36,429 nt of DNA, taken from contig NZ_FQUG01000013.1 of the NCBI RefSeq assembly GCF_900129225.1, positions 1 through 36,429 on the forward strand, written 5' to 3'. Of this stretch, positions 10,448 through 21,420 are shown piece after piece. The notes beneath the pieces are model-generated. The model was not told where the DNA came from, ran no database searches, and saw nothing but the letters and a program-made list of their open reading frames with translations. This stretch comes from Schwartzia succinivorans DSM 10502. Its GTDB lineage: Bacteria > Bacillota > Negativicutes > Selenomonadales > Selenomonadaceae. Both the position numbers and the translations under genes were made by a program. Each line of letters begins with the position of its first letter. The stretch's first letter is position 1.

Positions 10448-12385
10448 TTACCTGAGAAGTGACAGCACCTGACTTGAGTTCTGGTTTGCCTGTGCCAGCA
10501 TAGCTTGAGACGACTGCGACAGGATGTTGTTCCTTGTGTATTCGGTTATAGCCTGTGCCATATCGACATCACGTAGAGTACTTTCTGATGCCATGACATT
10601 TTCGATTGCCGTGGTCAGATTCGTCGAGGTGTAGGTTAGACGACTTTCAATAGCACCAATGGAGGTCTGCTGATCCAAGGCCTTTTGAATCGCCGTATCC
10701 AATACATTGATGGCGGCATTCGCATTCTGTTGGTTCGATACGTTCAGTGTTGAGCCGTCAGTTCCCTGCAGTCCGAGAGCCTGGGCACGCATATCGGTGA
10801 GCCCGATTTTTATTGCTTGATTTGCTCTTGTTCCGACCTGCAGGACAATTGCTGTATCCTCGGCTTCCTCATTTTCTCCGCGGATGGTTTCGCTCCATGC
10901 GTCGAGCACTGCATTGACAGATTTCTTTATCTTACCGTCAATATCGGAGACGCTGACGGTAAATCCGGAAATCTGACCGCCTACACCGCTGTTCATAGCT
11001 GTAACGGTAATCGCGTTTTCGTTGTTGGCTGTGTAGACAATCTCATCTGCACGAGAAATGCCGACTTTAGTACCGTCCAAAAGCTTCGGACCGGACAGGG
11101 AATCATAGAAGTTGCTTGCTTCCGTAGCAATCGCAGAGGCTGATGAAGCATACCCTGAGTACGATGATGTGTTGTAGCCGGCGGTTCCCAGTGGATATGG
11201 ATTGGAGCCCAAAAGAGGAACTTCCGGAGGCGTGGGAGTACTCACATCGTTTAAGGAAGTTGAATCTGAGCTTAGGAAGTTACTTAATGCCGTATAAGCA
11301 GACGAGTACGCATCTCTAGTGCCTGTGTCACCTGTCAGGTCAAGACATACATTCAAATACGATAGAGTACTGAGATCACTGACTTTTGGGGTGTTGTTGA
11401 TGGGAGTTCCGGCCTCTTTAAGTGAGCTGCCAGTCTTCCAGCCATCAAATTCATTCAGAGCTTTTGATGCTATACCAGCCACAACAACATCGGTTGAGGA
11501 GGCGAATGAAACCACAGTGTTCCTGAAATCATCAAGCGCGCTGTGCAAATTGGATAATAACGATGAATAACTATTATATAGCCCTGTTGCCGCCAGTGAA
11601 ACATTTGAGCTTGTAGTAACCCAGCCCTGCGCCAAAGCAGCCTGTGCCGCAAGCTCCGCGTAATCCGTAACACCGTTAACCTTTGCTATAGCGATATTAT
11701 ACTGATCTGCAAATGTATATGTGCTGGTATCAATATCCTCAGCCGCTTTGAAGATATACTGCAGAGATGTTGTTCCTGCGGTATATGAGGTGGTATAGGT
11801 TTTGCCGTTTTGTACATAGGAAACTGTGACATTATCCGATGACAAAATCCCCAGATTATTTCCATTGCGGTCTTCCAGTTCAGTCAGTGCAGTACCTGCG
11901 CCTGTATTCGTCGAAAAGCTTTGATTCGTAAGCGCATTGTAGGTTGCAATTCCTTTGCCACGTTTAGAACCATCGACGAGATATTTTCCGTTGTAGGTTA
12001 CATTGGCATTGTCGTTAATCTGGTCAATGCTCTGATCAAGTTCTTTCTGGATAAATGCACGGTCAGCATCCGTGTTGGTGTCGTTTGCTGCATCGATGAC
12101 CTTTTCTTTCAGGGTTTTCAAAATATCAACCGTACTTTGTACGGCTCCTTCGGCCACCTTCATCATGCTGTTGCCGTTCTGCGTGTTAAGATTGTCCTGA
12201 TTCAGGGAGCGTATCTGCACACGCATACGCTCCGAGATAGCATATCCCGAAGCATCATCCCTGGCACTGTTGATGCGCATTCCCGAAGATACCATCTCTA
12301 GGTTCTTCGACAGCGCGGTTTGATTCCTGTTCAGCGTGTTTAGCGTGTTCACGGCTGACAGGTTGTTCCTGACTACCATCGACAT
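10448..12385 (-). CDS. fliC: Flagellin with large Ser/Thr-rich central domain
   Basis: Structural protein of the flagellar filament, 645 residues, secreted through the flagellar export apparatus. The N-terminal D0/D1 region (MVVRNNLSAVNTLNTL, then LSKNLEMVSSGMRINSARDD) and the C-terminal D1/D0 region (ESTLRDVDMAQAITEYTR to a QVLSLLR end) are canonical. The variable centre (about 155-540) is long and rich in Ser, Thr and Tyr, with an Ala/Ser-rich stretch and a TPTPPEVP segment. The start at 12385 is chosen for AAAGGAG upstream; an in-frame ATG at 12412 would add nine residues that flagellins lack. A sigma-28 promoter and leader lie upstream. No other flagellar gene is near. Two heptosyltransferases and an FkbM methyltransferase downstream of its promoter region make it a candidate glycoprotein. 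Confidence 0.95.
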   Translation of the reverse strand: MSMVVRNNLSAVNTLNTLNRNQTALSKNLEMVSSGMRINSARDDASGYAISERMRVQIRSLNQDNLNTQNGNSMMKVAEGAVQSTVDILKTLKEKVIDAANDTNTDADRAFIQKELDQSIDQINDNANVTYNGKYLVDGSKRGKGIATYNALTNQSFSTNTGAGTALTELEDRNGNNLGILSSDNVTVSYVQNGKTYTTSYTAGTTSLQYIFKAAEDIDTSTYTFADQYNIAIAKVNGVTDYAELAAQAALAQGWVTTSSNVSLAATGLYNSYSSLLSNLHSALDDFRNTVVSFASSTDVVVAGIASKALNEFDGWKTGSSLKEAGTPINNTPKVSDLSTLSYLNVCLDLTGDTGTRDAYSSAYTALSNFLSSDSTSLNDVSTPTPPEVPLLGSNPYPLGTAGYNTSSYSGYASSASAIATEASNFYDSLSGPKLLDGTKVGISRADEIVYTANNENAITVTAMNSGVGGQISGFTVSVSDIDGKIKKSVNAVLDAWSETIRGENEEAEDTAIVLQVGTRANQAIKIGLTDMRAQALGLQGTDGSTLNVSNQQNANAAINVLDTAIQKALDQQTSIGAIESRLTYTSTNLTTAIENVMASESTLRDVDMAQAITEYTRNNILSQSSQAMLAQANQNSSQVLSLLR

Positions 12386-12480
12386 TTCAATCCACTCCTT
12401 TGTTTCATCCATTCTTCCATGCGGTGTCGATTCCGTTCGTGAGTGTCAATCATTGACACCCGTAGAGGTAAAACTCTCAT
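12386..12480 (-). promoter_or_regulatory. Flagellin 5' leader with hairpin and five GGA motifs
   Basis: The ~95-base leader holds a perfect GTGTCAA/TTGACAC hairpin (12443-12459). The proximal 45 bases carry five GGA triplets, the last two around the ribosome site. GGA clusters overlapping a flagellin ribosome site are the hallmark of CsrA repression in Firmicutes. A second GACACC (12424-12429 region) could compete for the same GGTGTC arm. Confidence 0.45.
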
Positions 12481-12486
12481 CAATAT

Positions 12487-12513
12487 ATATCGGTGGAAAA
12501 TAAGATGCCATTA
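12487..12513 (-). promoter_or_regulatory. Sigma-28 (FliA/SigD-type) promoter of flagellin
   Basis: On the minus strand TAAT (12510-12513) and ACCGATAT (12487-12494) are separated by exactly 15 bases. The sigma-28 consensus is TAAA-N15-GCCGATAA/T. Position about 100 bases upstream of flagellin fits. Confidence 0.8.
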
Positions 12514-12554
12514 AAAAATTGTATAAATTAATTACATCAGTAGATAATCCACCT

Positions 12555-12578
12555 ATTATATGTATTATAACATATAAT
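12555..12578. repeat. AT-rich perfect dyad in the flagellin/DUF3298 intergenic region
   Basis: Arms ATTATATG (12555-12562) and CATATAAT (12571-12578) flank TATTATAA. This intergenic stretch (12413-12760, about 350 bases) also holds the flagellin leader and promoter and one copy of the 24-bp repeat; I see no gene in it. Could be an operator or simply an AT-rich spacer. Confidence 0.35.
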
Positions 12579-12633
12579 ATACATTGATTTGCAGTGAGTG
12601 TAGATTAAAAAAACAGTAAAGTTTAGTTTGTTT

Positions 12634-12657
12634 GGGGACATCTTTTGCCGAGTTATA
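12634..12657 (+). repeat. 24-bp repeat, copy 1, resembling a sigma-54 promoter
   Basis: Identical over 24 bases to 16552-16575. It contains GGGGAC-N5-TTGCC, with GG and GC ten bases apart, close to the sigma-54 consensus TGGCAC-N5-TTGCA. Located about 110 bases upstream of the DUF3298-heptosyltransferase-FkbM operon and pointing toward it. Confidence 0.55.
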
Positions 12658-12760
12658 TAAAGCGGATGCGCATGAAATTGAAAAAATTATGGCAATTTTA
12701 TTTATGATTTTATATTATGTAGCTAAAAGGATTATTTATCGTGAAACGGAGGGAATTTAA

Positions 12761-13624
12761 ATGTGGAAAAAGGTTTTGGCGGCAGGAAGCGCGGTATTTG
12801 CGTTGGGATTTCTTGCACCGATTGACAGCGGCTGCTCCATTGTGTGGAGTACAGCGTCCTGCGAGGAAGGAATGCAGCTCAAGGCACCGGACGGGCTTGA
12901 GTACAGTACGCCTCTGGCGTATGATTCAATAGTGCAGCGGACAGAGCTTAAGCATGACGACAGAGTGATTATGACCGGCCGCACCTACGAGGTTGAGCTT
13001 GCGGTTCAGAGCGCCCGAAAGTTTCCAAAGCTTCAGAGAGCGCTTGAAAGACTCGCCACTGATAACTGGGCATACATGCATAAAATGATGAAATACTGGG
13101 AGCCTGACCTCGTTGAACAGTATAATGCGCGCAAGGCAGACGGTTGGTTCAGTGACGGCTCGACCCCTCCATTTTGCTACGAGTTAAAATTCTCCGGGCT
13201 CAGGGCGGATACAACGGTATTCAGCTGTGTAGGAGAGGAGTTTATTTTTCTTGGTGGAGCACATCCGGTAACATACTACAGAGGTCATGTGTTTGATACA
13301 AAGTCAGGGCAAGAGCTCAATCTTGATGATATATTTGAGACCACCGAAGGACTGGCAGAGATTATCGTGCATGAAACGACTGCACAATGCAGGGAACAGA
13401 CAAAAATGATAGATAAAAAAGAAACTGTAAAAAAGGTGCAGAAAATGATAGATGACCATAAGCTGCAGTACGGCATGACAGAGGAGGCACTGGTTGTCTA
13501 TTTCGGCTCCTATGCCATCGGGCCATATGCCATGGGGACAATGGAGGTCAAACTCCCGTACACGAAATATATGAATATGTTCAATAATAAATATGTCTTC
13601 TACGGTGAGAAGGCAAAGGGTTGA
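12761..13624 (+). CDS. Secreted DUF3298-like (RsiV/PdaC-type) protein
   Basis: A 287-residue exported protein. An N-terminal signal sequence (MWKKVLAAGSAVFALGFLAP) is followed by a domain resembling the DUF4163/DUF3298 pair of RsiV and PdaC. Characteristic blocks are FLGGAHPVTYYRGHVFD-TKSG-ELNLDDIF and, near the end, VYFGSYAIGPYAMGTMEVKL. In characterised relatives this domain binds lysozyme or accompanies peptidoglycan-modifying modules; here no catalytic domain is attached. The ATG follows GGAGGG by 7 bases. The next gene starts 41 bases later with no terminator, so it probably heads the glycosyltransferase operon. Confidence 0.72.
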   Translation: MWKKVLAAGSAVFALGFLAPIDSGCSIVWSTASCEEGMQLKAPDGLEYSTPLAYDSIVQRTELKHDDRVIMTGRTYEVELAVQSARKFPKLQRALERLATDNWAYMHKMMKYWEPDLVEQYNARKADGWFSDGSTPPFCYELKFSGLRADTTVFSCVGEEFIFLGGAHPVTYYRGHVFDTKSGQELNLDDIFETTEGLAEIIVHETTAQCREQTKMIDKKETVKKVQKMIDDHKLQYGMTEEALVVYFGSYAIGPYAMGTMEVKLPYTKYMNMFNNKYVFYGEKAKG

Positions 13625-13665
13625 GCCCCGGTGTGGCGAGAAAATAAAAGAAAGCGGGATTACAG

Positions 13666-14919
13666 TTGAAAATCGTGCATGACCTTCCGATACTCTATTT
13701 CAGTTCTGATGTTAAGGATGTAGGCGGTTCGGATTTCAGTGAAATTGCAAGTCTGGATTCCGATGCAGGACCGATTAAAGGCGAGACAGGAATCGAGGGA
13801 CTCAGAATTGATTTTAATGCAGGACTCAGGCTGAGAGTGCCAAAAGGAAATTGGCATATCTGTATTTCGGATGATGACAGCGAATTTGTCTTTTTTGATG
13901 AAGCTGTCTCGGAAAAAGTGTTGATTTCCATGGAAAAATACTACATAAAATGGCGCGTTGAGGCATATCTGGACGGTGAGCTGAAATTTGCGCATGTTTT
14001 CAATCCTGAAGGGATGAATGTATTATTTTCCCTGAAAAAAACGCCACTTGGAGAGGCGGTAATGCTTCTTCCGTATGTTCAGGAATTTGTTAATCTTCAT
14101 AAATGCCATGGGCTGATTTTGACTAATCCTGCGTATGAGCCTATTATACGGGAGTATTTTCCGGAACTTGAGATTATAAACAGTATAACGGATGATACAT
14201 ATGCGAATTATCTGATAGGCACAGTAATGACTCCGCCATTTCTGCTGTCGGATTCATCCAGGGCACTTCCGGTACAGTATGTGGGAAGATTTTTGCTTGG
14301 TTTGCATCGTAATCCCCAAAAGGTTTTGTTTTACCCAAAGAAACCAAGAGAAATTGAAACACCTTATGTGTGCATTGCCGTACAGGCATCGGGAGTGGCG
14401 AAGTCGTGGCTTAATCCCAATGGATGGGATATTGTTATAGACTATCTGAAGCAGCTGGGATATCGTGTACTCTGTATAGATCGTGACAGATGTAACGAGG
14501 ATTCAAAGGGACGTAAGGTGTGTATGCCTAAGGGAGCAGAAGATTATACGGGAAATCTTCCGCTGACGGATCGCATTGAACTTCTGGCATATGCAGATTT
14601 TTTTATCGGAGTTGGCAGCGGTCTTTCGTGGCTGGCAGATGCGGCCGGCTGCCCCGTTGTACTCATCAGTGGGTTCAGTATGCCAGTGGCAGAGTTTGAC
14701 ACGCCTTATCGTGTTATTAATCCGTTGGTGTGCCACGGCTGCTACAATGATATGACGGTAGATTGGCTGAATCCATTGTGCCCAAGACATCATGATACGG
14801 AACGTGAGTATGAGTGCTCGGTTAAAATTCCACCTAAAATGGTGATTTCTACAATAGACCGTCTGAGAAAAGACTTAAAGGATAGAAAAGAATTATCTGA
14901 TGCATGGAAAATAAGATAA
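13666..14919 (+). CDS. TibC/Aah-type protein O-heptosyltransferase (GT9-like), copy 1
   Basis: A 417-residue cytoplasmic glycosyltransferase of the bacterial autotransporter heptosyltransferase family, which transfers heptose from an ADP-heptose donor to Ser/Thr of a surface protein. An N-terminal all-beta-like region (about 1-115, with FDEAVSEKVLISMEKYY and HVFNPEGMNVLF) precedes a GT-B fold containing VCIAVQASGVAKSWLNPNGW, YRVLCIDRDR and IGVGSGLSWLADAAGCPVVL. Four cysteines at 356, 359, 372 and 384 (CHGC, LCPRH, YECS) match the metal-binding finger of TibC. The start is TTG 13666, with only a weak GCGGGA site. It is followed by the FkbM gene. No autotransporter is in the window; flagellin is nearby. 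Confidence 0.82.
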   Translation: MKIVHDLPILYFSSDVKDVGGSDFSEIASLDSDAGPIKGETGIEGLRIDFNAGLRLRVPKGNWHICISDDDSEFVFFDEAVSEKVLISMEKYYIKWRVEAYLDGELKFAHVFNPEGMNVLFSLKKTPLGEAVMLLPYVQEFVNLHKCHGLILTNPAYEPIIREYFPELEIINSITDDTYANYLIGTVMTPPFLLSDSSRALPVQYVGRFLLGLHRNPQKVLFYPKKPREIETPYVCIAVQASGVAKSWLNPNGWDIVIDYLKQLGYRVLCIDRDRCNEDSKGRKVCMPKGAEDYTGNLPLTDRIELLAYADFFIGVGSGLSWLADAAGCPVVLISGFSMPVAEFDTPYRVINPLVCHGCYNDMTVDWLNPLCPRHHDTEREYECSVKIPPKMVISTIDRLRKDLKDRKELSDAWKIR

Positions 14920-14972
14920 TAATGATTTAATAGAACGTGTGTATGTGATTTAGAATAACAGGGGGAATTTTC

Positions 14973-15782
14973 ATGTGGCATTCAACACTTTGTCATGATT
15001 TTCGCTATGGAAAAATTATGTACAATCAGCTTGATCAATATGTTGGGAAATCTCTGAGGCTTTATGGTGAGTATAGTCAGGGCGAGGCGGATATCTTTGA
15101 ACAGCTTGTGCACCAGGGAGATATTGTCGTGGAGGCCGGAGCGAATATCGGATCGCATACTGTACATTTGGCACAGATGGCAGGAGATAAAGGACAGGTT
15201 TGGGCATTTGAACCACAGCGGCTGGTTTTTCAGCTTCTAGCGGGAAATGTTGCGATAAACAGCCTTACAAATGTGCATTGTTTGCAAAAATGCCTTAGTG
15301 ATGTGAGTGGGGAAATTATCAAGGTTCCTGTCCTGAATGTAGATGCTATAACTAATTGGGGTGGACTGGAGCTTGGTGATTATACGGAAGGCGAACCGGT
15401 TGAAACGGTTACGGTTGATTCACTTAATTTGCCGGGATGTAACTTTTTTAAAATTGACGTAGAGGGAATGGAGCTTAAAGTTCTGCGCGGGGCAGAGAAA
15501 ACAATAAAGAAATATCGTCCCATTATTTACACGGAAGCGGACCGCAGTGATAAAAATAAGGAATTGTTCGAATATATTAAATCACTCGGATATCGTATCT
15601 ATAAGCATGAGCCAACGCTTTATAATCCAAACAATTATTTTCATAATCCGGAGAATGTATTTGTAAATGAAGCGATGCTTTCTGATGGTACTAAGATACC
15701 TGTAAATATTGTTTCGAGCAACGTGTTGTGTATTCCAAGCGAAATAGATGCTAAAGTGGATGGATTTCCGGAAATATCATAA
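14973..15782 (+). CDS. FkbM-family SAM-dependent methyltransferase
   Basis: A 269-residue Rossmann methyltransferase. The SAM motif VVEAGANIGSHTV is at about 52-64, AFEPQ at 78-82, and the family signature FFKIDVEGMELKVLRGAEK at about 158-176. FkbM enzymes O-methylate sugars in polyketide, polysaccharide and flagellin-glycan pathways. GGGGGAA lies 6-7 bases before the ATG. It is 53 bases downstream of the heptosyltransferase gene on the same strand with no terminator between, so modification of the same glycan is plausible. It is convergent with the next gene. Confidence 0.88.
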   Translation: MWHSTLCHDFRYGKIMYNQLDQYVGKSLRLYGEYSQGEADIFEQLVHQGDIVVEAGANIGSHTVHLAQMAGDKGQVWAFEPQRLVFQLLAGNVAINSLTNVHCLQKCLSDVSGEIIKVPVLNVDAITNWGGLELGDYTEGEPVETVTVDSLNLPGCNFFKIDVEGMELKVLRGAEKTIKKYRPIIYTEADRSDKNKELFEYIKSLGYRIYKHEPTLYNPNNYFHNPENVFVNEAMLSDGTKIPVNIVSSNVLCIPSEIDAKVDGFPEIS

Positions 15783-15798
15783 TTGGTAGAATAATATT

Positions 15799-16326
15799 TT
15801 AATGCCACTCTACACCCAATCCTGCTCTCGGATTGCGGAAATATTCCAGGACGGTACCGTCATCAAGATTCAGCACATTGTAGCTGTAGTCAACTATATC
15901 CGTGGGATCGGCTTCGTCAGAGGGGTTTGCTTTCACGTAAAGTATTCTTCTTCCATCAGGAGAAAGAGTGCATTGTCCTATATGTCCTGCGTTACCCGGG
16001 GCAAGACGCTGCAATGTATCGTGAGCGGTGCTGTTCAGCTGTTCGCCGTGATAAGAAAAATCTGCGGGCTCATCTGTTTCTGTCAGCCCGCAGAACGAAC
16101 GCTTGTAGGCTTTCTGCTTGTTATAATCTTTGAGGACGATGCCCTCGTACGCATCAATTTTCTTGTATTCCTGTGATACGTCCAGCAGAGTCCATGAAAG
16201 CATCACTTTATAGGTTCCTGCCGCCAGCAGAAATACAATAAAAAGAACGTGCAGTCCAAGAATCAGACAGAAAAGACGGAATATGAACTTTGTAATTTTA
16301 GAGGTAATTCTGCTAAGGTTTGTCAT
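15799..16326 (-). CDS. Membrane-anchored hypothetical protein
   Basis: A 175-residue protein, not recognised. One N-terminal membrane segment (about 15-40, FIFRLFCLILGLHVLFIVFLL) is followed by an extracytoplasmic domain. Near residues 120-150 it contains CTLSPDGRRILYVKANP and, later, YSYNVLNLDDGTVLEYF. This resembles a single blade of a TolB/WD40-like beta-propeller repeat (S-PDG-R-I-Y), but the protein is far too short for a propeller. The ribosome site is weak. It is convergent with the FkbM gene, 16 bases apart, with no clear terminator. Confidence 0.6.
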   Translation of the reverse strand: MTNLSRITSKITKFIFRLFCLILGLHVLFIVFLLAAGTYKVMLSWTLLDVSQEYKKIDAYEGIVLKDYNKQKAYKRSFCGLTETDEPADFSYHGEQLNSTAHDTLQRLAPGNAGHIGQCTLSPDGRRILYVKANPSDEADPTDIVDYSYNVLNLDDGTVLEYFRNPRAGLGVEWH

Positions 16327-16408
16327 GTCATATAAGTCCGTTCAGTATTATAGTTGGATTTTATGCAATGGTCTAATTATAGAAATACGAGGATGAAATT
16401 TTTATGAA

Positions 16409-16426
16409 TATGCATTATAATGCATA
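16409..16426. repeat. Perfect 18-bp palindrome upstream of the unknown/M18 pair
   Basis: TATGCATTATAATGCATA reads the same on both strands. It lies in the ~285-base space between a minus-strand hypothetical and the plus-strand unknown gene; that space also holds copy 2 of the 24-bp repeat and a small TGGCA/TGCCA hairpin (16460-16472). The palindrome may be a dimer operator. Confidence 0.4.
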
Positions 16427-16551
16427 CAATCAAATTTGTCATAGGCAAACTTTCCTCTGTGGCATTTTGCCAATGGCATTAGCTTCGCGTCGCGCGAGGC
16501 AGGAGACATTCTCGCCGTCTGTTGTTTGCTTCAGCCCTAATTACAGAAGTG

Positions 16552-16575
16552 GGGGACATCTTTTGCCGAGTTATA
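16552..16575 (+). repeat. 24-bp repeat, copy 2, resembling a sigma-54 promoter
   Basis: Exact copy of 12634-12657 (GGGGAC-N5-TTGCC core). A transcript starting about 12 bases after the GC element would leave a ~35-base leader before the TTG start at 16613. Confidence 0.55.
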
Positions 16576-16612
16576 CTAATTACAAATGATGAAAGAACAG
16601 GAGGAATCTAAA

Positions 16613-16915
16613 TTGGTCGGAACATCAATGGAAGTTACGGGATACGCTGAAAGAACGTATTCCAATAAGGACTGGGAAGGGAAATATCCCACCGAGAACG
16701 ATTACCGTATGGCTCTTATCGGCAAGATTAACTGTGGAGATATGGTGAATCCAAAGGGAGAAATCGTTGGCGTTGAATCTGTGGAAAAGGGCATGACGAT
16801 TACCTACTTCATGACAGGAAGCGTCGATACGGGCTGCTATGATGAGGGTGAAGCAGATGCATACGTAGCGCAGAAATGCAGCTTCGGTGAATTGTTTGAT
16901 GTGGAATGGAACTGA
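16613..16915 (+). CDS. Unknown 100-residue protein coupled to the M18 aminopeptidase
   Basis: Not recognised. A small soluble acidic protein without signal peptide, with three cysteines (INCGDM, DTGCYDEGEADAY, QKCSFGE). The TTG at 16613 is preferred because AGGAGGA lies 8 bases upstream; the in-frame ATG at 16586 has none. It ends 4 bases before the M18 aminopeptidase start, so the two are translated together. Confidence 0.72.
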   Translation: MVGTSMEVTGYAERTYSNKDWEGKYPTENDYRMALIGKINCGDMVNPKGEIVGVESVEKGMTITYFMTGSVDTGCYDEGEADAYVAQKCSFGELFDVEWN

Positions 16916-16919
16916 AGGC

Positions 16920-18185
16920 ATGAATACACAGGAACTTCTTAAATTTATAAAGAAAAGTACATCACCGTACCACACGGTAATGGCGGTGGAGAAAATACTG
17001 AAGGCTGCAAAGTTTCAGGAGCTTGCCTGGGGAAGGGCATGGAAACTTAAAGCAGGCGGGGCTTATTTTGTCAGCGTATTCGGGAGTGCGCTCATGGCCT
17101 TTCGCGTCGGAAGGAAAAAAGGAATGCTCCGCATTGCGGCAGCACATACGGATTTCCCGGGCTTTCGTGTTAAGCCTTCACCTGATATGAAGGAAGGCGG
17201 CTGCCTTATGCTGAATGTAGAGCCGTATGGCGGGCTTATACAGTCCAGCTGGCTTGACCGGCCCCTTTCGATTGCAGGAAGCGTTGCGCTTCGCGGAGAG
17301 AACGCTTTTCATCCTGTGACGCGGTATGTGGATTTTGGACGGCCGATTTTGACTATACCCCGGCTTGCTATACACATGGACCGAAAGGTCAATGATGGCG
17401 AAAAGCTGAACAGACAGACGGAGATGCTCCCGCTTGCCGCGCTGGACGGTGAGGAAATTTCAAAGGAGTTTTTCATCGAACAGCTGGCAGGAGAACTTGA
17501 TTGCAGGTCGGACGATATTCTCTCCTATGACCTCACCGTGTACGCCTGTGAAGAGCCATGTGTGCTGGGCTTTGACAGAGCATTCATTTCTGCGCCGCGT
17601 TTGGATAATCTTACATCAGTAAAAGCCTGCATGGATGCGCTTTTGGACGCAAAAACAGAAAGCGGTATTACTGTTGCAGCCATGTTTGATAACGAAGAGG
17701 TTGGAAGCCGCACGAAACAGGGAGCAAATTCCGCTTTACTTGATGAGCTGCTTCGAAAAATTTACGAGAGCCTTGGCCGCGAAAATGAACGCTCACAGGA
17801 TATTGCACAGGGCTTTCTTCTTTCCGTGGATGTAGCGCATGGATGGCATCCGAACTATTCGGGAAAAGCTGACCCGACAAATCGTCCGAAGCTTGGCGGC
17901 GGCTTTGCCATAAAGCAGGCTGCAAGCCAGTCCTATGTTGGGGATGCCGAGGCACAGGCAGTTGTAAAGGCATTGGCGGATGAAGCTTTTGCGCCGTATC
18001 AGACCTATGTGAACCGTTCAGATATCCCCGGCGGTTCGACACTTGGCTCCATGGTATCGGCAAATCTTTGCCTTAGAGGACAGGATATAGGTGTACCCAT
18101 CCTTGCCATGCATTCCGCAAGGGAATTCATGGCAGCTGCAGACCAGGAAGCCCTTACGGATTTAATTACGAAATTTTTCGCGTAA
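16920..18185 (+). CDS. M18-family (aspartyl-type) aminopeptidase
   Basis: A 421-residue cytoplasmic dinuclear zinc aminopeptidase that removes N-terminal, often acidic, residues from peptides. Metal and catalytic motifs are visible: AAHTDFPGFRVKP (His and Asp), MFDNEEVGSRTKQGANS (two Glu), SVDVAHGWHPNY, KLGGGFAIK and GGSTLGSM with a late LAMHSAREF (His). Length and order match M18 enzymes. ATG 16920 is used; the frame extends upstream into the previous gene without a better site. GAAGG sits very close to the start, consistent with coupling to the preceding small gene. Confidence 0.93.
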   Translation: MNTQELLKFIKKSTSPYHTVMAVEKILKAAKFQELAWGRAWKLKAGGAYFVSVFGSALMAFRVGRKKGMLRIAAAHTDFPGFRVKPSPDMKEGGCLMLNVEPYGGLIQSSWLDRPLSIAGSVALRGENAFHPVTRYVDFGRPILTIPRLAIHMDRKVNDGEKLNRQTEMLPLAALDGEEISKEFFIEQLAGELDCRSDDILSYDLTVYACEEPCVLGFDRAFISAPRLDNLTSVKACMDALLDAKTESGITVAAMFDNEEVGSRTKQGANSALLDELLRKIYESLGRENERSQDIAQGFLLSVDVAHGWHPNYSGKADPTNRPKLGGGFAIKQAASQSYVGDAEAQAVVKALADEAFAPYQTYVNRSDIPGGSTLGSMVSANLCLRGQDIGVPILAMHSAREFMAAADQEALTDLITKFFA

Positions 18186-18192
18186 AACTGAC

Positions 18193-18240
18193 TGAATCCG
18201 GCATACAGCCTTTCATTAGGGTGAATGGCTGGCGGATTCA
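18193..18240 (+). other. Long hairpin after the M18 gene
   Basis: TGAATCCG/CGGATTCA (18193-18200 with 18233-18240) encloses CAGCC/GGCTG (18206-18210 with 18227-18231) and a short TTCA/TGAA helix. No T-run follows. It starts 8 bases after the stop codon and may stabilise or process the mRNA end ahead of the true terminator. Confidence 0.45.
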
Positions 18241-18276
18241 CTGTTGTCCGCACAGATATTAAGTAAATAGGCATGC

Positions 18277-18310
18277 AAAAAGGGACTGTGAAAACGCAGT
18301 CCCTTTTGTG
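18277..18310. terminator. Bidirectional terminator between convergent genes
   Basis: A 13-bp stem (18278-18290 with 18295-18307) capped by AAAA. T-runs follow on both strands, serving the M18 gene and the minus-strand unknown gene. Confidence 0.85.
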
Positions 18311-18314
18311 ACGT

Positions 18315-18677
18315 TCAGATGTAATTTGATCCGGATTTGAAATATTTTGTTGGAGGTATGCAGTTCAGAGTTTTCTCCGTGTGTTTTGCATATCCAAGGA
18401 AATAGGCAATGGCGCCAATAAGTTTGCCAACATTTTCCTTCCATTCATCGGGGATTTGTCCGTTTCTTGCGATGCCGTTGTTTTCGGCAAAGAGCTCAAT
18501 ATCGTGAACAACGGCTGTTATTGGCGGTTCGCCTATGATGCAGAAGGCAGTAATTTTTCTGATGTTGATCGGAGTTGCCAGAGCGCTTATCAGCGTAGCT
18601 GTTGTTGAGTCATTTATGAACGGTGTGTCTCCGTAACGGTCCTTAAATGCTTCCTTGATAAGATTTTCTCGTGCCAT
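18315..18677 (-). CDS. Unknown 120-residue cytoplasmic protein
   Basis: Not recognised. Starts MARENLIKEAFKDRYGDTPF; no signal peptide or membrane segment is clear, although the middle (TTATLISALATPINIRKITAF) is moderately hydrophobic. The C-terminal third includes VGKLIGAIAYFLGYAKHTEK. A strong GGGGAGG ribosome site, an extended -10 promoter and a terminator all support a real gene. It is monocistronic and convergent with the M18 gene. Confidence 0.75.
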   Translation of the reverse strand: MARENLIKEAFKDRYGDTPFINDSTTATLISALATPINIRKITAFCIIGEPPITAVVHDIELFAENNGIARNGQIPDEWKENVGKLIGAIAYFLGYAKHTEKTLNCIPPTKYFKSGSNYI

Positions 18678-18720
18678 GATTTTACCTCCCCTAAGTCAGT
18701 ATAAAGAAGTTTCTGTTAAA

Positions 18721-18729
18721 ATTATAACA
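18721..18729 (-). promoter_or_regulatory. Extended -10 promoter of the 120-residue protein gene
   Basis: On the minus strand TGTTATAAT gives a perfect TATAAT with TG one base upstream, about 45 bases before the start codon. No good -35 is seen, as expected for an extended -10 type. Confidence 0.55.
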
Positions 18730-18892
18730 TATCAGGACGTTTTTTACTGACATAATAATGCTGCCTTGAAAATAAATTTATATATAGGGGATTTCTTTTT
18801 TGCTGTGTCTGTTCAGTCATATCGCCTCATTAAGGTATTGCACAATTCATTTCCGGTGTCAGGTACCATCCTTAAGCTATGCGTAGTTAAAT

Positions 18893-19216
18893 TTACTGAA
18901 GTAATATTTCTACACCGCTCACTATCTCGTCAGGTTTTACCCGGCAAATACAATGACTATATTCCTTTTTGCACCCGCCATATCCCATCCATCCTGCACA
19001 ATCACCTGCACGCTCATCGGGACAGCAAATCACATGATTCGTCTGCCAGGGAGCAAATCTCTGATTTGCACTGAATACTCCGGCTAAATCTCCACAAAAA
19101 TCGTCCTCTTCCTGGGATACCATAACTACAGGTAGTCCCACAGCAGCCGCCATATACCCAAATGGTTTTGCAATTATATCCCTAACGCTTTCTGGTACCG
19201 CAGTAAAAAGATTACA
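18893..19216 (-). pseudogene. 3' remnant of a GT9-type glycosyltransferase gene
   Basis: Directly after the stop codon of the second heptosyltransferase the same frame stays open for 107 codons. It encodes what looks like the C-terminal part of another GT9 transferase: FGYMAAAVGLPVVMVSQ, RFAPWQTNHVICCPDE and CRVKPDEIVSGVEILL. The internal ATG at 19153 has no ribosome site, and the Rossmann donor domain is missing. I read it as a truncated, probably untranslated leftover. A short separate gene or stop-codon readthrough is less likely. Cysteines are frequent (ICC, GDCAGW, GGCKKEYSHCIC). The 215 bases between it and the next gene hold only that gene's promoter. Confidence 0.65.
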
Positions 19217-20464
19217 TTACTTGTTTTCGTTCGATAAATCGTGTCGAAGCCTCTCGATAGTCATTATAACTTGTTGAGGAGAAATAGACCGTGAACACTC
19301 AAAAGCCCTATCTGTCCCACGATGATATGGACAATGTTGAACATGTACCCATTCTGCACGAACGTCGTTAAAGCATCCATGGCATTTTGTGAAATTTTGA
19401 ACACGATAAGGTGTGTCAAATTCAAACCAGGGCAGTGTAAAGCCTGATATCATAACAACAGGACATCCAGCTGCGTGCGCAAGCCAGGAAAGACCGCTGG
19501 AAAGTCCAACGAAAAAATCCGCATATGCCAAAAGATTTATGCGTTCAATCAAAGGAATATCGCCTGTAAAATCCTCAGCTTCGGCTGGAATTTTCGAGGA
19601 AATACCTTCATACACATTTTCACGGTCCCGGTCAATGCAGAGTACTCTATATCCGGCATCTTTTAAGTATGCAACAACCTCATCCCATCCTCTCGGATGA
19701 TGCCAACCTTTCCACGTTCCGGAAGCCTGCACCCCAATACACACATAAGGCTCCTGTATAGCGCGGGATTTTGTTGGGATATACCTTACCGTCTGTAGTG
19801 TATATGGTGTACCCAAAACAGTTTTGCCGATTATTTCCATAGGCATTAGTCTGCTATCTACGGAAGCTCCTGCAAGAAAGTTCATCCATGTTCCGACGAA
19901 ATACGATGCATAAGTTTTATCACTACGTGCATCTGCAAAAACCAGATCAGGATAATACCGCTTTGCGATATCGCGTAAATTTGCTGCCATAGAAACAATT
20001 GGTTTGCATTTCAGGCGTCGGATGAAATCAGACACATAAGGAAGCAGCGCAATTGCATCTCCAATTGCAGCGCTTGGAAATTTGAAGAAAACTTCCATTC
20101 CCATCGGATTGAATGTATGAGAAAAGATTTGCGTCCCTTGAAAGAAAATTTCTATTTGCCAAGGAATAAAAAACTTTTCAAAAGAAACGAGAATTACGCC
20201 CGATACGTCTTCATCAAAATAAATTTCTTCACTATCTGCATTCCCTATAACAACTCTGAGGGTATCTTCACCTAAGTTTGGAATCTGCATACGTAATCCG
20301 CAATTAAAATCAATTCTTAACCCTTCAAACTCTGTTTCTCCCAGAATCGTCTCCGGGGGTTCTGCAATTTCTTGAAACTTTTTCAGCCACGCTGACATAA
20401 GGGTCTGCGGGTAATTTTCATTCGAACATTTGAAGATGCGTATCGGAAAACGATCCTCCATCAT
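19217..20464 (-). CDS. TibC/Aah-type protein O-heptosyltransferase (GT9-like), copy 2
   Basis: A 415-residue paralogue of the transferase at 13666-14919. It has the same N-terminal region (FEGLRIDFNCGLRMQIP, FDEDVSGVILVSFEKFF, HTFNPMGMEVFF), the GT-B blocks VCIGVQASGTWKGWHHPRGW, YRVLCIDRDR and VGLSSGLSWLAHAAGCPVVM, and the four-cysteine finger (CHGC, HCPYH, FECS) with nearly the same spacing. The start at 20464 follows TAGGAGG; an upstream ATG at 20512 lacks a site. It is transcribed toward copy 1, with the glycosylation genes and M18 locus between them. A GT9 remnant follows in frame. Donor and acceptor are inferred to be ADP-heptose and a surface or flagellar protein. Confidence 0.82.
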   Translation of the reverse strand: MMEDRFPIRIFKCSNENYPQTLMSAWLKKFQEIAEPPETILGETEFEGLRIDFNCGLRMQIPNLGEDTLRVVIGNADSEEIYFDEDVSGVILVSFEKFFIPWQIEIFFQGTQIFSHTFNPMGMEVFFKFPSAAIGDAIALLPYVSDFIRRLKCKPIVSMAANLRDIAKRYYPDLVFADARSDKTYASYFVGTWMNFLAGASVDSRLMPMEIIGKTVLGTPYTLQTVRYIPTKSRAIQEPYVCIGVQASGTWKGWHHPRGWDEVVAYLKDAGYRVLCIDRDRENVYEGISSKIPAEAEDFTGDIPLIERINLLAYADFFVGLSSGLSWLAHAAGCPVVMISGFTLPWFEFDTPYRVQNFTKCHGCFNDVRAEWVHVQHCPYHRGTDRAFECSRSISPQQVIMTIERLRHDLSNENK

Positions 20465-20527
20465 CCATGGCCTCCTATAATATAAGATAGTCACCTTGAA
20501 ATATTGTAACACAAATTGTATAAACAG

Positions 20528-20539
20528 AACTCGGCAAAA
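20528..20539 (-). repeat. Partial third copy of the TTGCCGAGTT motif
   Basis: TTTTGCCGAGTT on the minus strand matches 12 bases of the 24-bp repeat and points toward the second heptosyltransferase, about 65 bases upstream of its start. The GG element is not conserved here, so it may be decayed or coincidental. Confidence 0.3.
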
Positions 20540-20697
20540 AGAATTCTGCTCCTATATAAATACAGATTTGAAAATAAATTTATATCATGCAGGAAAATCT
20601 TCTTTTTGGGCGAATATATTATATGCTGAGTATTTCCACAGGAGAGCAGGAAACGGTACAGAGGCATGAATCGTGTTAAAAAACATGGAGGTGCGGT

Positions 20698-21420
20698 ATG
20701 GAGTTTGGACTGACGGATAAGCTGTGCAAGAAGATAAAGCTGGACACCCTGCAAAGGCCGGAGGAACAGGAAGCGGCTTTTTGCTGGGAAGTCAATTTTG
20801 ATATCGCATTCCGCAAAATGATTATTTTTATCGTGAATGCGAGCAGCCGTTTTGCGGTTATCGCTTACGGAATTTCTCCGGGAGATTTGAGGAAGAATTT
20901 GCCGGGTATTGCAGAAGGACTCATCCGGCAGGCCATGAGGGACTGCATAGGGATTCCGGAGACTGCCATAGATGCCTATTTCGATGCGGCAGGAGAGGCC
21001 AAACTCACGAAGACGCATGGTAAAAAAGCGGTAGGAAATATGACGCGGCTTATGATGGATGCACCATGCTGGCGTGTGCCTGTTTTTACAGATATTGTGT
21101 ATCAGGACGAAATGACAGATATTGCGAATCACGAGATTTTCAAGGACGGTCCCAGGGACAGGGATTACCGTGTTGTCATGGAGAAAATGGTAGATGATTT
21201 GATGAGGCTTGGGATTATTTCAAAGGAAAAGCGGAATATGCCAAGAGGAGCCAGCTATGCGCAGCTTAAGCAGGAAGTGATGAAGCTGCAGATGGGAGCA
21301 GAACCAAGCGAGGATGTTGCAGAGTACCTGCGCGGCGGCATAAATGAGTCGCGGTGGAAGCATATTTTGACTGAGGATGAAGCTATGGAGCTTCATAACA
21401 GACTTAATGAATTACGGTAA
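20698..21420 (+). CDS. DUF6933-like protein with extra C-terminal region
   Basis: A 240-residue cytoplasmic protein of unknown function. Residues ~1-125 resemble DUF6933: a K-L-C-KKIKL start, FCWEVNFDIAFRKMIIFIVNASSRF, YGISPGDLRKNL, and a GEAKLTKTHGKKAVGNMTRLMMD block. The remaining ~115 residues (IFKDGPRDRDYRVVMEKMV, LKQEVMKLQMGAEPSEDV) form a charged, mostly helical tail I do not recognise. GGAGGTG lies 5 bases before the ATG. It is monocistronic with a terminator and divergent from the second heptosyltransferase. Confidence 0.7.
   Translation: MEFGLTDKLCKKIKLDTLQRPEEQEAAFCWEVNFDIAFRKMIIFIVNASSRFAVIAYGISPGDLRKNLPGIAEGLIRQAMRDCIGIPETAIDAYFDAAGEAKLTKTHGKKAVGNMTRLMMDAPCWRVPVFTDIVYQDEMTDIANHEIFKDGPRDRDYRVVMEKMVDDLMRLGIISKEKRNMPRGASYAQLKQEVMKLQMGAEPSEDVAEYLRGGINESRWKHILTEDEAMELHNRLNELR

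Follow-up and report, generated by a model that had tools for sequence, protein, structure and literature searches.

What does a glycosyltransferase of the TibC type modify in a genome that has no match to the repeats of TibC's own class of autotransporter? The question is raised by a locus of Schwartzia succinivorans DSM 10502 on contig NZ_FQUG01000013.1, the whole of which (36,429 bases, in a genome of 2.66 Mb on 20 contigs) forms the window analysed here. Two such glycosyltransferase (GT) genes, which we call GT1 (13666-14919, plus strand) and GT2 (20464-19217, minus strand), lie 1.3 kb and 6.8 kb from a gene for a flagellin of 645 residues (10448-12385, minus strand), and GT1 is followed on its own strand by a gene for an FkbM-family methyltransferase (14973-15782). 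An earlier note on this DNA had proposed flagellin as the acceptor of a methylated heptose glycan. In the reading that we favour, with a probability of roughly 0.42 for the whole of it, GT1 and GT2 would bind, in a TibC-like cleft, a heptose activated by ADP (a kind of donor shared with lipopolysaccharide) and transfer it, still in the cytoplasm, either to a protein destined for export or to a sugar that this protein already carries; GT1 and the adjacent FkbM enzyme would act on flagellin to give an O-methylated heptose unit. The basis of this reading is computed: homology, individual residues, the predicted fold of GT2, the division of the enzymes into two branches, the lack of AIDA-type repeats and the genomic company of the relatives.

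The two window proteins are 49% identical to each other and resemble TibC. Against TIGR04414 (hepto_Aah_TibC, curated cut-off 200 bits) GT1 scores 337 bits and GT2 362 bits, both far above the threshold; both match the TibC_1st domain PF21129 (58 and 37 bits, respectively, with a cut-off of 27); and in the PDB, at E 0.001, both match TibC alone (4rap/4rb4, E 1e-69 to 1e-74, over most of the length). Judged from these alignments, the likeness is not chance. In PHROGs, neither GT1 nor GT2 found a match, and the FkbM protein matched a methyltransferase family; the latter also scores 92 bits against TIGR01444 (cut-off 37.7) and 76 bits against PF05050 (cut-off 22.7).

The residues that serve TibC can be followed into these proteins. 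In TibC, according to the parts of the cited papers on which we draw here and below, Arg286 touches the adenine, Trp305 and Pro300 the heptose, and Thr226 and Lys230 the phosphate, while Asp110 is the base, iron is bound by four cysteines, and transfer to protein needs the N-terminal domain and the iron finger (PMC4358343). GT2 keeps Lys230, Arg286, Trp305, Asp110 and the four cysteines, with a mild change of Thr226 to Ser and with Ser for Pro300; GT1 keeps the same lysine, arginine, tryptophan and cysteines, with Glu for Asp110, Ser for Thr226 and Gly for Pro300. Across 101 genomes of the family, TIGR04414 matches over the cut-off comprise a low class at 219-383 bits (64 genes in 34 genomes), which includes both window enzymes, and a TibC branch at 456-582 bits (26 genes in 15 genomes). 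When 63 low-class proteins were aligned to TibC, Lys230 was found in 63, Arg286 in 62, Trp305 in 61 and each cysteine in 60, with three gaps; one wrong-frame row, G029_C304_9595, remains in the TibC-branch part of this alignment. The catalytic-base position holds Asp in 57 of the 63 and Glu in six, and these six genes (window GT1, two from G065, and one each from G032, G002 and G074) form a sub-branch.

A predicted model of GT2 (19247-20332, pLDDT 88) agrees with these alignments. Its best structural match is TibC (Z 38.2, root-mean-square deviation 2.4 over 359 residues), followed by GT9 heptosyltransferase-type chains at Z of about 18-20; other GT-B chains also appear below TibC. The fold (in the GT2 model), the N-terminal domain, the ADP-heptose contacts, the four-cysteine finger and TIGR04414 membership are shared with the BAHT enzymes TibC and AAH, and the window enzymes would very probably work chemically like them. 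In GT1 and GT2 the iron finger is shorter by two to three residues. The GT2 model places strands 238-241 and 244-247 at the position of the thumb, the beta-hairpin whose hydrophobic tip serves the TibC dodecamer; the hydrophobic pair at the TibC tip (F265/V266) is not conserved in the low-class branch.

Could the branch have switched to a different nucleotide sugar? Its clear separation from TibC would allow for this, as would the two contact positions that vary: position 226 is Ser in 58 of the 63 low-class proteins, and position 300 is Ser in 30, Gly in 21, Pro in seven and Ala in four, with one gap. We nevertheless consider such a switch improbable, given that Arg286, Lys230 and Trp305 are kept almost throughout, that Ser at position 300, as in GT2, is the state of AAH, which accepts both ADP-heptose forms (PMC4358343), and that heptosyltransferase-type chains are the nearest folds after TibC. 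Genes of the HldD type (416 bits against a cut-off of 275) and of the HldE-domain-II type (214 bits against 182) are also present in the genome. Taken together, the sequences point to ADP-heptose as the likely donor.

We next consider where these enzymes stand in relation to the autotransporter heptosyltransferases. In a tree of 84 rows, from which the wrong-frame row and five fragments were left out, a branch with SH-aLRT support of 100 separates the low class from TibC; GT1 and GT2 are both on the low-class side, and only G045_C77, low by score, groups with TibC. Matches over cut-off to the strand-loop-strand repeats of AIDA and TibA (TIGR04415) occur in nine of the 101 genomes, all nine of them among the 15 TibC-branch genomes, and in none of the 24 genomes that have the low class only. 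The S. succinivorans genome has no TIGR04415 match and no YadA anchor, and a classic pair of BAHT enzyme and autotransporter is thereby ruled out. The window GTs are not classed as BAHT because this repeat-autotransporter partner is missing; by sequence, the low-class GTs are a TibC-type branch, sister to the autotransporter heptosyltransferases and common in Selenomonadaceae. Such genes are found either within glycan islands or as solitary genes, and two more of them lie in tandem on contig C13 of the same genome (235715-238049), among glycan-type genes. Tandem arrays of at least three in a row occur in G085 outside the island families (C200 and C208; L047, L044), and one contig (G135:C18, L219) carries an array of five.

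A link to flagellin comes from the glycan islands. Low-class genes of Anaerovibrio, Selenomonas and others lie in islands with GT2/TPR (a family label unrelated to our GT2), GT41, GT8, GT9, FkbM and glycerophosphate-type genes, named here from one annotated representative per cluster; three TibC-type GTs stand amid some 20 other, mostly glycan-type genes. The best relatives of GT1 (54-56% identity) sit in such islands in G178, G186, G175 and G185. The best relatives of the FkbM enzyme (62% in G178, 64% in G175) are likewise in islands, where each has another low-class GT as its immediate neighbour; in G178 and G186 the GT1 relative adjoins a member of a different FkbM-domain family. In G175 and G186 a flagellin-domain gene is on the same contig as the island, 18.4 and 16.4 kb from the nearest low-class GT (17.4 kb in G177), 31.5 and 27.5 kb from the GT1 relative and, in G175, 23.0 kb from the FkbM relative; no flagellin was found in the island stretches read in G178 and G185, which cover part of the surroundings only. 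Of the GT2/TPR family itself, 21 of 34 members lie within 10 kb of a flagellin, a count in which three members come from a stretch taken as a flagellin locus. At least one of four island families lies within 10 kb on 19 of 52 low-class contigs (one of which, G020:C56, was not among the sequences read) versus 0 of 17 TibC-branch contigs, a comparison that is partly circular in that the families were chosen for their frequency near low-class GTs. A further sample consisted of 77 named loci from the best 80 of 468 relatives (Selenomonas ruminantium, Anaerovibrio, Schwartzia, Quinella and many Selenomonadaceae or Selenomonadales metagenome bins), partly on the same contigs as the numbered genomes; there, island families lie within 10 kb in 16 of 33 loci with full flanks. 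In one island (L213:6920-13526) the gene for a protein with cytidylyltransferase-like and GFO/IDH/MocA oxidoreductase domains adjoins a GDPD gene and has a gene of the CDP-glycerol glycerophosphotransferase type in its vicinity; the decoration made there may be glycerophosphate-like.

Wider counts agree with this link at the larger distances. In 189 genomes of the family, a TIGR04414 gene of either branch is present over cut-off in 90 and flagellin-domain genes in 183; the GT occurs in 90 of the 183 genomes with flagellin and in none of the six without it (P 0.019). With the window's own genome left out, and at distances set after the data had been seen, seven of the 14 low-class contigs that have full flanks carry a flagellin within 19 kb, where no more than 1.55 would be expected (P 3e-4; two of the seven are orthologous Anaerovibrio loci), and four of 17 carry one within 13 kb (P 0.04). 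In the TibC branch, one GT of the 26 lies 0.6 kb from a flagellin-domain gene (L114, G065:C6:59354-62391), the only such case.

Several observations weigh against flagellin as the acceptor. Firstly, the six genomes without flagellin cover three genera, and the P value ignores kinship. Secondly, within 10 kb a flagellin is found on only three of 20 contigs (P 0.13), and in one of the 33 named loci with full 10-kb flanks (five of 77 overall), so that a tight linkage across the branch is unsupported. Thirdly, the low-class contigs beyond the 19 of 52 lack the island families or are too short, and many low-class members are lone genes or stand in tandem arrays. Fourthly, among sub-cut-off repeat matches in two more genomes, one is in a low-class-only genome (G095, E 6.9e-4). 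Fifthly, no flagellin was seen near the best relatives of GT2 (62-72% identity, in G076, G067 and G089), on contigs of just 4.1, 10.5 and 6.0 kb, nor within about 19 kb on each side of the next full-length relative (53%, G054). The flagellin link thus holds for the island loci and is not seen at many others, several of whose contigs are too short. That the whole branch was re-targeted to flagellin in Selenomonadaceae, with FkbM partners O-methylating the heptose and several copies per genome serving different flagellar glycans, strikes us as rather unlikely. The acceptor proposed in the earlier note fares better for GT1, through the islands of G175 and G186, than for GT2: flagellin is our best single guess for GT1 and the FkbM enzyme, and one of several candidates for GT2.

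Which other proteins might be modified? The acceptor could be another exported protein (an autotransporter, a two-partner secretion (TPS) exoprotein, or the product of a DUF3298 or BsuPI neighbour), with the window flagellin a bystander. The genome encodes four PF03797 autotransporter beta-domains and four PF05860 TPS exoproteins, which also count against flagellin; the earlier note's statement that no autotransporter is present is right for the window, and for AIDA/TibA-type repeats in the whole genome, but not beyond that. Between flagellin and GT1 lies a gene for a DUF3298 protein with a signal-peptide-like start (12761-13624, plus strand; PF11738, 40 bits), which shares the strand of GT1, is separated from it by 41 bases and may be its operon partner. 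A gene for a secreted BsuPI-domain protein directly follows the GT2 relatives in G067 (C66, L042), G076 (C221, L048) and G089 (C84, L052), and the acceptors tested for TibC, in the parts of the paper used here, were the autotransporters TibA and AIDA-I (PMC4358343). We nevertheless hold this alternative to be doubtful. Apart from the lack of AIDA-type repeats, a search of the window and four 20-kb stretches of the genome found no BsuPI match better than E 4.4. Among 15 picked, well-assembled low-class genomes, PF03797 is present in 12 (absent from G003, G177 and G186), TPS exoproteins in 14 (absent from G093), YadA in none and flagellin in all 15. Flagellin is the sole one of these four acceptor types found in every genome, which is weak evidence because flagellin is near universal in the family.

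In G067 and G089 the BsuPI gene is in turn followed by a zinc-ribbon gene, a relative of which is close to a flagellin-domain gene in G049. On contig C15 of the S. succinivorans genome (232250-241999, L228) a flagellin gene is followed by one for a giant TPS/FHA-like exoprotein (2725 residues within the stretch), and a similar proximity of flagellin-domain and TPS matches is seen in G177:C23, G186:C4 and G016:C31. The C15 arrangement recalls EtpA, an exoprotein of enterotoxigenic Escherichia coli (ETEC) that is said to be at the flagellar tip (PMC5000012).

A further possibility is that GT41/GT2-type proteins encoded beside fliC start the flagellin glycan; the TibC-type GTs would then supply a heptose at a later stage, or serve some other surface glycan. 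On C13 (173710-184999) a flagellin gene is followed directly by four GT2/TPR-type genes (175163-184999), the last with GT41 (O-GlcNAc-transferase-type) domains; their products are candidate flagellin glycosyltransferases. The number of other glycan-type genes around the TibC-type GTs in the islands is also in keeping with this alternative. The flagellin O-glycans of Selenomonas sputigena were reportedly the subject of work by Rath in 2018. In this species, of a related genus, flagellin is reported to be heavily O-glycosylated, with glycans described as rhamnose-linked (PMC13339959), a point in favour of a heptose added later and a further one against our reading. We judge this alternative unlikely: the N-terminal domain and iron finger, needed in TibC for transfer to protein (PMC4358343), are kept, and no other glycosyltransferase was found among ten scanned proteins of the window (10448-21420).

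The window genes themselves are largely as the earlier note had described them. The flagellin (PF00669, 113 bits; PF00700, 74 bits) starts at ATG 12385, preceded by AGGAG, which gives the 645 residues; GT2 starts at ATG 20464, preceded by AGGAGG; and the two TibC/Aah-type transferases near flagellin, with their four cysteines, and the methyltransferase after one of them were all borne out. The Ser/Thr-rich centre of the flagellin is real (24% Ser+Thr) but not unusual beside 28, 20 and 15% in three others of the genome's seven flagellin-domain matches; as the second of four genes compared, its richness was dropped as evidence. The flagellin is on the strand opposite to GT1 and the FkbM gene. 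A weak sigma-28-like site (10/12) lies upstream of it, one of 27 such sites in the window on both strands; no site of at least 10/12 precedes the DUF3298 gene, GT1, FkbM or GT2, nor the flagellins of C13 and C15, and the scan is therefore uninformative.

Heptose on flagellin is not in itself new. In ETEC H10407, 14 heptosylated Ser/Thr residues of FliC were identified in the BEMAP study by direct liquid chromatography-tandem mass spectrometry, and TibC was named as the proposed heptosyltransferase (PMC5000012); an hldE mutant of this strain is without flagella and has reduced fliC mRNA (PMC6090259). The modification, shown in ETEC and proposed here from genes, would be the same, but TibC is part of an autotransporter system, whereas the low-class branch lacks such a partner and lies partly in islands with flagellin. 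A literature search, with most subscription journals outside its reach, listed no report assigning a TibC-type enzyme to flagellin in Selenomonadaceae; the earlier note, which knew of no described flagellin O-heptosylation system of this type, is weakened on this point by the ETEC report. FlmG of Caulobacter is, to our knowledge, not a TibC-type enzyme. What it shares with our proposal is the cytoplasmic O-glycosylation of flagellin (PMC7591256).

Should our reading hold, these enzymes would illustrate how a single fold for protein heptosylation passed from adhesins to flagellin, and a function could be assigned to 64 or more genes, spread over 34 of the 101 genomes of the family. For these low-class genes the automatically assigned name 'autotransporter strand-loop-strand O-heptosyltransferase' may then be incorrect; their products also offer a panel with which the choice of acceptor can be tested directly.

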